From contig JAOPXN010000035.1 of assembly GCA_025965155.1 (NCBI GenBank), positions 1 to 40,471 on the forward strand: 40,471 nucleotides of DNA. The letters are read 5' to 3'. The stretch is from Propionibacteriaceae bacterium (GTDB taxonomy: Bacteria; Actinomycetota; Actinomycetes; Propionibacteriales; Propionibacteriaceae). The first letter of the stretch is position 1; every line of letters begins with the position of its first letter. Both the position numbers and the translations under genes were made by a program. Of this stretch, positions 11,022-35,767 are shown in pieces. Under the pieces are notes generated by a model. It worked only from the letters and a program-made list of their open reading frames with translations, ran no database searches and was not told the DNA's origin.

Positions 11022-12170
11022 ATGAGCGACTCCGCTGGCTTCTCCACTCGGGCCATCCACGCCGGCCAGGATCCCGACCCCGCCACCGGGGCGGTGATTC
11101 CGCCGATCTATGCGACCTCGACGTTTGCCCAGGACGGGGTCGGCGGTATCCGTGGCGGCTACGAGTACTCCCGGTCGGCGAACCCGACCCGCGCCGCCCT
11201 GGAGGAATGCATGGCGGCGCTGGAGGGCGGCAGCCGGGGCTTTGCCTTCGCCAGCGGCCTGGCCGCCGAGGACACGCTGCTGCGTACCATCGCCAGCCCG
11301 GGCAGTCACCTGGTCATCCCCAACGATGCCTACGGCGGCACGTTCAGGCTGTTCGCGCGGGTCCATCAGCGCTGGGGCATCGAGGCGACGACTGCGCACC
11401 TGACCGACCTGGAGACGGTCGAGGCCGCGGTGCGTCCGGGCCGCACCACGGCTGTCTGGGTCGAGACTCCGACGAACCCGCTGCTGAACGTCGTCGATAT
11501 CGCCGGGGTCGCGGAGATCGCGCATGCGGCGGGTGCGCTGGTGATCGTAGACAACACGTTCGCGTCGCCGTACCTGCAGCAGCCGCTGGCACTGGGCGCC
11601 GACATCGTGGTGCACTCCACGACGAAGTACTGCGGTGGCCACTCCGACGTCATCGGCGGTGCCCTCGTGGTCGACGACGACGAGCTGGCCGAGCAGCTCA
11701 GGTTCCATCAGAACGCGATCGGTGGGGTGGCCAGCCCGTTCGACTCCTGGCTGGTGCTCCGCGGTCTGAAGACATTGGCGGTCAGGATGGAGCGGCACAG
11801 TGACAACGCCGAGCAGGTAGCCGCGTTCCTGGACGGGCACCCGAAGGTCAGCCAGACCCTCTACCCCGGGCTCCCTTCGCACCCGGGCTTCGAGCTGGCA
11901 AAGCGGCAGATGCGCCGCTTCGGCGGCATGGTCACCTTCCGGGTCGCCGCCGGCGAGCAGGCAGCCCTCGACGTCTGCGCCCGGACGAAGCTGTTCATCC
12001 TGGGCGAGTCCCTCGGTGGGGTCGAGTCCCTGATTGAGCATCCCGGCCGGATGACCCACGCCTCGGTTGTCGGTACCGAGCTCGAGGTATCACCCGACCT
12101 CATCCGCCTCAGCGTTGGCATCGAAGACGTAGAAGACCTCATCGCCGACCTAGACCACGCCCTAGCCTGA
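11022..12170 (+). CDS. metB: Cystathionine gamma-synthase
   Basis: A 382-residue PLP-dependent trans-sulfuration enzyme joining cysteine to an activated homoserine to give cystathionine on the way to methionine. PLP-binding Lys202 is in HSTTKYCGGHSD; other family marks are YEYSRSANPTR (substrate/PLP region), DAYGGTFRLF, VETPTNPLL and VDNTFASPYLQ. Cystathionine gamma-lyase is very similar and cannot be excluded; the place next to the greA/mca block matches metB of M. tuberculosis (Rv1079). A -10-like TACGCT (11010-11015) ends 6 nt before the ATG and no ribosome site is visible, so the message may be leaderless. The stop is followed immediately by the 61-bp repeat array. Confidence 0.92.
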   Translation: MSDSAGFSTRAIHAGQDPDPATGAVIPPIYATSTFAQDGVGGIRGGYEYSRSANPTRAALEECMAALEGGSRGFAFASGLAAEDTLLRTIASPGSHLVIPNDAYGGTFRLFARVHQRWGIEATTAHLTDLETVEAAVRPGRTTAVWVETPTNPLLNVVDIAGVAEIAHAAGALVIVDNTFASPYLQQPLALGADIVVHSTTKYCGGHSDVIGGALVVDDDELAEQLRFHQNAIGGVASPFDSWLVLRGLKTLAVRMERHSDNAEQVAAFLDGHPKVSQTLYPGLPSHPGFELAKRQMRRFGGMVTFRVAAGEQAALDVCARTKLFILGESLGGVESLIEHPGRMTHASVVGTELEVSPDLIRLSVGIEDVEDLIADLDHALA

Positions 12171-12171
12171 C

Positions 12172-12232
12172 CCGCGAGTAGTCAGTACCTCCGCCTCCCA
12201 CCCGGCGTGTCCCGGCGGCACTGACTACTGGC
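12172..12232 (-). repeat. 61-bp repeat copy A
   Basis: First copy of the intergenic repeat, starting 2 bp after the metB stop and placed in minus orientation. Its ends form a perfect 10-bp inverted pair, AGTAGTCAGT (12177-12186) and ACTGACTACT (12220-12229), with 33 bp between, so the transcript could fold as a hairpin right behind metB. Contains the shared core GACACGCCG (minus strand). Confidence 0.8.
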
Positions 12233-12246
12233 GCACGGGCGACTTC

Positions 12247-12307
12247 CCGCGACTGGTCACCTCCTCCGCCCCCTGGTCGGCGTGTCGCTGCGCTGCTGAC
12301 TACTGGC
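12247..12307 (-). repeat. 61-bp repeat copy B
   Basis: Exactly 61 bp, minus orientation, 75 bp after the start of copy A. Shares GCCAGTAGTCAG at one end, GACACGCCG in the core and CAGTCGCGG at the other end. The terminal inverted pair is imperfect (GGTCA / TGACTAC). Confidence 0.8.
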
Positions 12308-12320
12308 TCCGCGCGAATTT

Positions 12321-12381
12321 CCGCGACTGGTCACCTCCTCCGACCCCTGGTCGGCGGGTCCCGGCGGCACTGACTCCTGGC
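12321..12381 (-). repeat. 61-bp repeat copy C
   Basis: Exactly 61 bp, minus orientation, 74 bp after the start of copy B and closest to it in sequence: the half with CCGCGACTGGTCACCTCCTC is identical in both. The core reads GACCCGCCG. After this copy (12382-12510) no gene or further repeat was recognised. Confidence 0.8.
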
Positions 12382-12510
12382 GCAGCGGACGAGGCCGGAA
12401 AGGCGCGCTGCTGCTCGTCCCGCCGCGGATAGCTCGAGATCAGCTGCCGAAGGCCGGTTGAGGTCGTGGCGCGCCGCGTGACGGTCGCCCGCCGCGGTTG
12501 CCTTCCGTTG

Positions 12511-12603
12511 GATTCCATAAACCCGCCCCTCATCGCCGCCAAGTCGTCGACACGCCGGTCGGGAGCCGTACCCGCCACCATGAGTGGCTTATTACTGGAC
12601 TTC
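12511..12603. repeat. 93-bp direct repeat, copy 1
   Basis: Begins GATTCCATAAAC and ends ATTACTGGACTTC; 76 of 93 positions match copy 2 at 12903-12995 with no gaps. It contains CGACACGCCGGTC, a sequence also present in the 61-bp repeat core. Differences are spread over all codon positions in every frame, so it is not evidently coding. A 61-bp repeat (copy D) follows 30 bp later. Confidence 0.75.
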
Positions 12604-12633
12604 ACCTCGTCGAGCGCGTCCCCAACCGTGTCG

Positions 12634-12694
12634 CCGAGTAGTCGCCTGTGCTGCGACACGCCGGTCGGAGCCCGGAGGATGGGACTAGTCGTGG
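12634..12694 (+). repeat. 61-bp repeat copy D
   Basis: Exactly 61 bp, plus orientation. Reads AGTAGTC near its left end, GCGACACGCCG in the core, CGGAGGAT and GACTAGTCGTGG at the right end. Most diverged copy just after the AGTAGTC element. It follows the 93-bp repeat copy 1. Confidence 0.75.
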
Positions 12695-12902
12695 AGGCTC
12701 TCGGTTCATGAATGCCGGCCGTTCGCTCCGAGGGGGTGTTGGCGCGGCTGATTGCGGGGGCGCAACAAACGGCCGCGTTCCGACACCGGTGTTGGGGGCT
12801 TGGCGATGTACGGAAGTGACCGGTCGGGACCCGGCGGCTCGCGGTCAGCTGGATCGGCTGGCGACGCGATGCTCGATGTCGGCGCTCGAACTGTGCTGTC
12901 TC
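12695..12902. other. Unassigned stretch inside the repeat region
   Basis: This 208-bp stretch lies between repeat copy D and the second 93-bp repeat. Open frames cross it on both strands but none has a convincing start, ribosome site or conserved product, and no further repeat copy was recognised. I see no gene in it. Confidence 0.5.
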
Positions 12903-12995
12903 GATTCCACGAACTCCCCCCACATCACCGCCGAGACGGCGACACGCCGGTCAGCTGCCCTAGCCGCCACCATGACCGGCTCATTACTGGACTTC
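12903..12995. repeat. 93-bp direct repeat, copy 2
   Basis: Partner of 12511-12603, 392 bp downstream and in the same orientation. Within it GCCGGTCA and TGACCGGC form a perfect 8-bp inverted pair separated by 19 bp (12947-12981); in copy 1 the matching arms carry mismatches. It is followed after 28 bp by 61-bp repeat copy F, reproducing the order seen at copy 1 plus D. Confidence 0.75.
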
Positions 12996-13023
12996 CAGGT
13001 GCTGGCGCGCGCCAGGCTCGACG

Positions 13024-13084
13024 CCCAGTAGTCAGCGCCGCCGGACGCGCCGACCAACCAGCGCAGGAGAATGACCATCCGCGG
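13024..13084 (+). repeat. 61-bp repeat copy F
   Basis: Exactly 61 bp, plus orientation. Starts CCCAGTAGTCAGCGCCGCCG, like copies A and C, and ends GACCATCCGCGG. The right half is diverged and the core reads GACGCGCCG. It stands in the same place after the 93-bp repeat copy 2 as copy D does after copy 1. Confidence 0.7.
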
Positions 13085-13098
13085 GGATTGCCGGCGCG

Positions 13099-13160
13099 CC
13101 GAGTAGTCAGCTCGGCTGCGACACGCCGCCAGAAGCGCGGAGGATGGGGCTAGTCAGCGG
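13099..13160 (+). repeat. 61-bp repeat copy E (62 bp), overlapping the ung stop
   Basis: Plus orientation, one base longer than the other copies. Reads AGTAGTCAG, GCGACACGCCG, GCGGAGGAT and CTAGTCAGCGG. Its last 7 bp include the ung stop codon (13154-13156). Because ung is on the minus strand, a message running past ung reads this copy in the same sense in which a metB message reads copy A. Confidence 0.75.
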
Positions 13161-13831
13161 ATGGTCCAGTTGATGGGGGTGGTGCCGGCCGATACGAGGA
13201 CTTCGTTGGCGCGGCTGAAGGGACGGGAGCCGAAGAAGCCGCTTCGGGCTGAGAGCGGGGAGGGGTGGGCGCTGGCTATGTACGGGACGTCGCCGAGCAT
13301 CGGGATCAGGCTTTGGGCGTCGCGGCCCCACAGGATCGCTACCAGCGGTCCGCCGCGGTGGACCAGTGCCCCGATGGCGCACTGGGTGACCTGTTCCCAG
13401 CCGCGCCCGCGATGGGACCCCGACTTGCCTGGCTGGACCGTCAGGACCCTGTTCAGCAACAGCACGCCCTGCTCGAACCAGGGGGACAGGTCGCCGGAGG
13501 CGGCGGGTGCGATACCGAGGTCGTCGCGCAGCTCGGCGTAGATGTTGGTCAGGCTGCGCGGGATCGGCCGGACGTCGGGCGCGACCGAGAACGACAGACC
13601 GACCGGATGGCCCGGCGTGGGGTACGGGTCCTGACCCACGATCAGCACCTTGACGTCGGCCAGCGGTCGACTGAACGCACGCAGCACGTGCTCCCCGGCC
13701 GGAAGGTATCCACGGCCGGCCGCCAGCTCGGCGCGCAGGAAGTCGCCCATCGCCGCGACGGTGTCGGCAACCGGCGACAGCGCCTCCGCCCAGTCAGCCG
13801 CGATCAGATCGGTCAGTGGGCGTCGAACCAC
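13154..13831 (-). CDS. ung: Uracil-DNA glycosylase, family 1
   Basis: A 225-residue family 1 uracil-DNA glycosylase that removes uracil from DNA at the start of base-excision repair. The water-activating Asp68 is in [17 protein letters not shown] and the DNA-intercalation loop is [18 protein letters not shown] near residues 190-207. Length is normal. The GTG at 13831 is preceded by AAGGAG and lies inside the last codons of the upstream MFS gene (38-bp overlap, different frame), so the two are translationally linked. Repeat copy E covers its stop codon. Confidence 0.95.
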
Positions 13832-35634: not shown

Positions 35635-35767
35635 ACCTCATTGTCACCGCCCGCCGACTGGTCCCAACTTCCGCACGCTGGGCGGCGCGTCGTGGCAGCT
35701 CTGACGTGTCGGCGCCTATCAGCCGGGCCAGCGTTCGATTCGCGTCCGATTTCGCCTGTCTGTGAAG

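Follow-up and report, generated by a model that had tools for sequence, protein, structure and literature searches.

The window analysed here, 40,471 nucleotides long, is the whole of contig C67 from a host genome of 4.49 Mb in 134 contigs. At the locus under study, a gene for a metB-like PLP enzyme and ung converge on a spacer of 983 bp (Table 1). Among the listed loci, the top matches of the metB protein were named Propionibacteriaceae (a MAG, 77%; Microlunatus kandeliicorticis, 78%). The spacer holds six copies of a palindromic element. Their positions and strands agreed with a preliminary description of this DNA, with A, B and C on the minus strand and D, F and E on the plus strand. That description had also placed the start of the array just past the metB stop and the last copy over the ung stop, and this was borne out: copy A begins 1-3 bp on from the end of metB, and the ung stop codon lies inside copy E. 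The motifs that all six copies were said to share hold generally, with exceptions in copy C (AGGAGTCAG and GACCCGCCG), copy D (AGTAGTCGC) and copy F (GACGCGCCG). Two features had been overlooked, namely a seventh copy elsewhere in the window and a 93-bp companion repeat that is present twice in the spacer. The likeness among the copies is not due to chance. Their E-values (7.1e-18 to 1.3e-12) come from a search of the host genome with R1, a sequence model made from 13 copies and partly built from these same copies; the model-free blastn search given below points the same way.

Table 1. Features of the metB-ung array and the seventh copy in the window
Feature	Positions	Strand	Remarks
metB-like PLP enzyme gene	11022..12170	+	PF01053, E 2.7e-148
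Copy A	12170..12234	-	R1 E 5.6e-15; 9-10 bp terminal inverted pair retained
Copy B	12245..12307	-	R1 E 7.1e-18
Copy C	12319..12382	-	R1 E 2.1e-16
Companion repeat, copy 1	12511..12603	+	93 bp; left end of copy D about 31 nt away
Copy D	12631..12696	+	R1 E 8.3e-16
Companion repeat, copy 2	12903..12995	+	82% identity to copy 1; 25 nt ahead of copy F
Copy F	13021..13087	+	R1 E 1.3e-12; least strong of the six; missing from nhmmer set
Copy E	13096..13161	+	R1 E 2.6e-16; ung stop codon within its right end
ung	13154..13831	-	named in the preliminary description; stop 13154-13156; tblastn match adjoins metB in 16 of 20 genus metB loci
Seventh copy	35650..35715	-	16 bp from start of a minus-strand gene

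A search of the host genome for further copies, as the preliminary description had proposed, was rewarding. With positions 12172-12400 as a query, blastn, which is independent of any model, returned 44 host matches, two in the window and 42 elsewhere. When the best 150 candidates were scored with R1, at least 145 matches at no fewer than about 135 separate places were obtained. For the following analyses 134 hits free of overlaps were retained, which fall into 88 clusters; the 11 dropped were nine opposite-strand readings, one separate weak place and one fragment. The nhmmer set, derived from 478 kb of fetched host sequence, likewise contained 134 copies, without copy F. Many closely similar copies are found inside one genome. 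The regular spacing of copies A, B and C (74-75 bp) would suit a local, decaying tandem duplication confined to metB-ung. This reading is ruled out by the copies found genome-wide with blastn and R1, to which copies in relatives are added, and we give it practically no credence. The repeats are well established as members of a genome-wide REP-like family.

The family extends to related genomes. R1 gave a match in 9 of 57 related genomes (G000, 88 rows; G009, 67; G004, 46; G012, 12; the other five, one each). A further model, R2, was run over 198 genomes of the bacterial family and gave a match in 12, with 1-4 rows each outside G000, G004, G009 and G012. With laxer filters, R2 returned 145 rows in G004, at least 150 in G009 and 101 in G012, three genomes of the same genus; since the palindrome is read on both strands, some places are counted twice in these rows. 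Each of the 95 listed G009 rows stands for a place of its own. A second form of about 52 nt was found in seven further members of the genus; its termini (CCGACTTGTCAG...CTGACAAGTCGG) are similar, and its interior is mostly paired but varies from copy to copy. Its length is almost always 52 nt, the exceptions being 49, 53 and 63. Among 20 genomes of the genus, 11 had exact hits to the termini pattern CGACNNGTCAN{20,48}TGACNNGTCG (G004, 101; G009, 87; G006, 25; G012, 19; G016, 18; G000, 14; G001, 14; G011, 3; G018, 2; G005, 1; G019, 1). As a control, the reversed pattern gave no hit apart from one place in G011. No exact hit was obtained in the other nine of the 20 genomes, six of which had 1-4 weak rows with R2. 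The 11-mer CGACTTGTCAG was found 270 times in G004 and 98 times in G006, against five occurrences of its reversed control in each; it was not found in G009 or G012 and occurred once in G000. With 270 exact words and the 57-nt form, G004 appears to carry both forms in one genome. Among named metB loci, 80 genome contigs with 838 kb gave a single weak row (E 0.012) and no element.

The form present in the host spacer has a nearly fixed length of 57 nt between its outer CGAC words (about 62 nt with flanks). The family as a whole shows conserved termini of the type C-CGAC-NN-GTCA / TGAC-NN-GTCG-G and stems of up to 25 bp. Placement of the element was analysed with gene calls from a simple, purpose-made codon-usage caller, not a published one. 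Among the 134 host copies, 5 lie inside called genes, 40 between convergent, 24 between divergent and 60 between tandem genes, and 5 at a contig edge. The nearest stop was -60 to +19 nt away in 61 of the 134. For the 122 copies that could be classed by stop distance (12 are without a usable stop), this range held 55 copies of one polarity against 6 of the opposite polarity, where random intergenic placement predicts about 9 per polarity. Both neighbours were called for 124 copies, leaving out the five at an edge and the five inside genes. A stop overlapping the element or within 30 nt of it was found at the right end in 56 of these and at the left end in 16, and a gene edge was closer to the right end in 100. 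When each cluster was given a single vote, the right end was closer to the gene in 63 of 83 clusters and the left in 15, with 5 ties. All 22 clusters with copies on both strands were arranged minus-then-plus.

A preferred polarity was observed in relatives as well, where the sampled loci are the best-scoring or first-listed hits and therefore not a random draw. In G009, a single contig of 7.24 Mb, 39 of 50 sampled copies (score at least 40) overlapped a stop or lay within 30 nt of one, all in the same polarity. The remaining 11 lay further from stops, and the right end faced a gene start in each of them. Neighbouring pairs within 4 kb, among the 95 copies listed for this genome, were minus-then-plus in 14 of 14 cases. 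At a score of at least 30, the main polarity was seen in 21 of 37 copies in G004 (4 reversed, 12 other) and in 15 of 23 in G012 (3 reversed, 5 other), whose hairpins are nearly symmetric. For the 52-nt form, stop distances were taken from 36 copies. Eighteen of the 20 sampled in G006 overlapped a stop or lay within 16 nt of one (one of them also inside another called gene), and 3 of the 20 were inside called genes. The other 16 copies come from G001, G016, G005 and G019, and 13 of them overlapped a stop or lay within 22 nt of one. As a separate observation, the strand sum over the 95 listed G009 copies climbs, has reached about +11 by 2.6-3.1 Mb, and then drops to about -3.

Pairing within the palindrome was then compared with shuffled controls for three sets of copies, keeping in mind that kinship among copies can outscore shuffles even without structure. 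In the 52-nt form (34 copies in an alignment that excludes L345, 53 nt, and L354, 63 nt), pairing was 89.8% against 77.6% shuffled and cells with a double change numbered 115 against 37.5. Covariation reached 0.332 against 0.119, a value attained in 0 of 500 shuffles, and at most 0.144 when the partner was slid. The 26 copies from G004, G009 and G012 gave 80.1% against 75.7% pairing and a covariation of 0.158 against 0.094 (0 of 500 shuffles). For the host copies, the values were 73.7% against 72.1% and 0.137 against 0.118 (2 of 500). None of the sets was remarkable in how many pairs carried a double change: 13 against 11.2 in the 52-nt form (reached by 68 of 500 shuffles), 8 against 6.3 in G004, G009 and G012 (97 of 500), and 10 against 9.7 in the host (308 of 500). 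RNAalifold gave little or no structure for 13 host copies and none for all 134. Covariation is therefore strong in the 52-nt form, moderate in G004, G009 and G012 and weak in the host. From the pairing and covariation of each set against its shuffles, pairing seems to be under selection in relatives and to have largely decayed in the host. The covariation that the preliminary description had proposed to look for is weak among the host's own copies and clearer in the relatives. It had reserved the reading as a mere local duplication for the case that both further copies and covariation were absent; both were found.

A hairpin behind a stop codon could be a transcription terminator. In this reading the hairpins are lineage-specific terminators, inherited vertically and homogenised, that bear a genus-specific motif at the stem base by chance. 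Hairpin energies far below those of shuffles (mean z -8.1 in G006 and -9.3 in G012) speak for it, as do the 9 of 20 G006 copies that sit between two stops, six of the nine with both stops at 1-17 nt. No U-run accompanies the hairpin. A TTTT within 10 nt downstream was found in 0 of 50 copies in G009, 0 of 37 in G004, 1 of 23 in G012 and 1 of 20 in G006, and the flank composition in the host revealed no U-run downstream of the element. Further points against terminators are the strong polarity of the asymmetric forms, the many closely similar copies per genome, and the nine of 20 genus genomes without an exact pattern hit (1-4 weak R2 rows in six). Wobble pairs show no consistent preference for the sense strand. 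G.U pairs in sense against antisense numbered 37 and 67 in G009, 8 and 43 in G004, and 10 and 11 in G012; the host was reversed with 98 and 67, and oriented 52-nt copies had 19 and 20. The preliminary description had suggested a 3'-end function, including termination, or a small mobile repeat with gene ends as its target. Both halves of this proposal are backed by location, polarity and copy number; termination by a classical terminator is unsupported because no U-run follows the hairpin.

The history of the metB-ung spacer and of other gene ends bears on the same question. A tblastn match to ung adjoins metB in 16 of 20 fetched genus metB loci, the host included. Element-free spacers of 8-197 bp, as measured from tblastn ends, were found in nine relatives (G014, G010, G016, G001, G008, G013, G007, G006 and G004), and further ones in G002 (313 bp), G015 (161 bp) and G017 (129 bp). 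That the spacer is without the host element in nine relatives counts against inherited terminators. On the other side, the spacers of G018 (71) and G011 (89) carry a hairpin that by eye resembles the 52-nt form and contains its 11-mer. G003 has a long spacer of 987 bp without the element, which counts against our reading. In the spacer of G014 (L326), the closest relative by metB, a different long hairpin was seen, and other hairpins may therefore fill this position in element-free genomes. The backbone of the metB tree is without resolution, and gain and loss cannot be separated from it.

Genes with an element at their stop were also compared between species by reciprocal best matches, computed within the fetched sets. 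Sixteen of 17490 possible pairs matched, in 12 gene groups with identities of 45-90%, compared to 14 of 117530 element/non-element pairs and 62 of 190077 non-element pairs. Because non-element pairs match often as well, the orthology signal is partly due to synteny and sampling. One gene has three species-specific hairpins directly past its stop in G000, G009 and G006. Such orthologous positions are in favour of terminators. Taken with the evidence above, terminators of this kind are a possible explanation, though one we would not bet on.

Spread by copying is likely, with a putative machinery. Composite units of element, spacer of about 300 bp and element are present at C118 and C7, and the spacers are 83% identical over 306 bp. 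By eye, the homology stops at the outer edges, and these composites therefore look as if they had been copied as units. Four sets were each screened for a target duplication by 448 offset/length tests, and none was consistent. The best result came from the 52-nt form, where 4 of 35 copies had a 3-mer duplication and 0.31 were expected; it was not common to the other sets, and old copies could have lost a duplication. PF01797, the Y1/RAYT transposase, had no match in any of the 20 genus genomes at E<=1, with the control positive in 10 of 14, and mobilisation by a RAYT was rejected on this ground. A serine-recombinase-type site with a shared crossover dinucleotide was set aside as well, the NN words of the host copies matching end to end as reverse complements in 47 of 134 cases against 33 shuffled.

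These data also bear on a purely selfish, non-autonomous DNA element, whose single-stranded hairpin would be recognised by a putative transposase or recombinase and which would insert beside gene ends with a favoured polarity and serve no host function. The near-fixed length, the similar termini and the divergent interiors would fit such an element, and so would its patchy presence (exact pattern hits in 11 of the 20 genomes of the genus), the sharp edges of the composite copies, pairs that are only minus-then-plus and the lack of sense-strand favour in the wobble pairs. Set against it are orthologous genes that share the element across species above the element/non-element rate, species-specific versions at the same spot, and interiors that are very different between copies and still largely paired. 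Moreover, neither a Y1 transposase in the 20 genus genomes nor a consistent target duplication was found. We regard a purely selfish element as unlikely.

Paired uptake sequences (DUS) form terminators in Neisseria. The enrichment of the 11-mer CGACTTGTCAG over its reversed control would be explained by a recognition word spread over the genome, of the uptake type (DUS/USS) or another, that is often present as an inverted pair. In Haemophilus, as reported in PMC5217627, paired uptake words make terminators, and hairpins at the 3' ends of genes carry a fixed word at the base of their stem, which is the point of likeness to the present family. The family differs from uptake sequences in the nearly fixed length of its element. 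Every exact 11-mer in 20 fetched G006 loci sits in a 52-nt hairpin, some of them with a mismatch in the other arm, and no single words were found outside hairpins in these loci. Together with the missing 11-mer in G009 and G012 and its single occurrence in G000, this disfavours an uptake word, which we consider very improbable.

MITEs are short, non-coding and have inverted termini that are common to variants with different interiors. The present family resembles them in each of these points. It differs in its polarity to gene ends and perhaps in the lack of a consistent target-site duplication, which old copies could have lost; among Y1 transposases no partner was found. From an intrinsic terminator it differs in that the hairpin, present in relatives, is without a U-run. 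Rfam gave no match in the window between 11900 and 13400. In 12 loci of relatives it gave 19 rows, none at the gathering score and the sub-threshold ones mostly to hairpin models of the microRNA type, and an RNA family already in Rfam was therefore rejected.

The closest likeness is to REP elements and BIMEs. According to PMC3733652, GTAG and CGTC REPs are high-copy extragenic palindromes that lie mostly behind coding regions, often less than 20 bp from stops; opposite-facing dimers are favoured and head-tail dimers rare, and the end of a GTAG REP can supply the stop codon. REP elements mobilised by RAYTs form composite units, as described in PMC2817692. The present family is likewise a high-copy palindrome, mostly extragenic and mainly behind coding regions near stops, with a stop codon in the end of an element, opposite-facing pairs and composites. 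Compared to the REPs described there, it is longer (52-62 nt against 20-40) and of nearly fixed length. PMC3733652 locates tagged REP families mainly in Proteobacteria and ties the GTAG type to RAYT transposases. The ends of the present element, CGCCGAC/GTCGGCG, are able to pair, in contrast to the GTAG type; no unpaired GTAG tag was seen, GTAG occurring by eye only inside part of the host copies, and the 20 genus genomes had no Y1/RAYT match. CGTC REPs, in the same paper, have stems of 8-9 bp, loops of 4-5 nt and an unpaired CGTC tag, with no dedicated transposase known. The present family shares with them the palindromic, extragenic nature; its stems reach 25 bp against 8-9 bp, and no unpaired CGTC tag was seen.

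REP-like repeats are not new to the phylum, since untagged ones have been reported in other actinobacteria. In PMC3733652, M. tuberculosis is named as a host of untagged REP-like families, and its text has no word that starts with Actinobact or Microlunatus. PMC12306157 tabulates predicted REPs in three Actinomycetota (Arthrobacter, Acidipropionibacterium thoenii and Acidimicrobium). A report of the family itself was not found in open-licence PMC full text. The family behaves like REPs but carries neither the GTAG nor the CGTC tag that marks the described superfamilies, and the GTAG-type transposase was not found. It is thus an abundant family of an actinobacterial genus, with no RAYT found, a polarity rule, a near-fixed length and, in some species, a changing paired interior.

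Based on these data, we think it reasonably probable that the elements are a REP-like palindrome family that is copied around the genome and kept as a 3'-end hairpin. Copies would spread by a copy-and-insert process, and insertion would land at gene ends or be tolerated mainly there. Behind a stop codon, the hairpin would act as a 3'-end block that limits read-through between neighbours and/or protects, or pauses at, the mRNA end. A 3'-end block would explain the species-specific versions at the same spot of some orthologous genes. Stalling of ribosomes has been reported for E. coli REPs that lie no more than 15 nt from a stop, in an earlier study cited in PMC12306157. Against our reading stand the weak pairing of the host copies, the 5 host copies inside called genes and the 24 between divergent genes, the reversed near-stop copies of G004 and G012, and the searches for an enzyme and for a consistent target duplication, which found neither. 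We infer that action at mRNA 3' ends is likely. There is real evidence against a mechanism in the sense RNA, a role disfavoured because of the missing U-run and the lack of a consistent sense-strand wobble preference. In the metB-ung spacer, the family, accompanied by the companion repeat, would have built up to six copies. More tentatively, and rather doubtful at present, a genus system independent of RAYTs may set fixed-length palindromes behind stops in a fixed polarity, with each lineage refitting the same gene ends. If true, such a system would combine conserved termini and a length ruler with an interior that changes freely yet stays paired, and it would represent a novel type of dispersal machinery linked to gene ends. 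Since the versions differ between relatives and some occupy the same gene ends, the genus offers a natural setting in which to study how repeats of this kind spread and whether they act at mRNA 3' ends.

The companion repeat is about 93 bp long with a GACACGCCG-like core. In the host it was searched only in the fetched stretches around elements, where 12 places were found (13 rows, one place being read on both strands): the two in the window, two in C70 and one each in C118, C7, C94, C127, C87, C81, C22 and C26. In 11 of the 12 places an element lies within 30-112 nt with its left end facing the repeat. Other intergenic repeats were seen in G009. One family of about 80 bp occurs at L225:2541-2620 and in L273, L266, L267, L272 and L232; another of about 65 bp, at L225:2842-2906 and in L265, L281, L271 and L231, is palindromic as judged from its self-match on both strands.

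Element pairs were also observed to bracket one to three called genes (L224, L227, L268, L270, L275 and L276 in G009; L277 in G012). Nine bracketed proteins, part of the genes there, were scanned. Seven matched families such as ALAD, NTP transferase, PEP mutase, NUDIX (two), MFS and sigma factor, and the other two are an integrase-core protein and an AbiEi-like protein with a sub-cut-off REase match. Because these are mostly ordinary families, bracketing looks incidental, and gene cassettes bounded by element pairs were rejected. The word CCTTCGACAAGCTCAGG or near variants of it recur in intergenic spacers at L227:3632-3719 of G009 and between metB and ung of G004, G015 and G003, and by eye the word interrupts the loop of one element.
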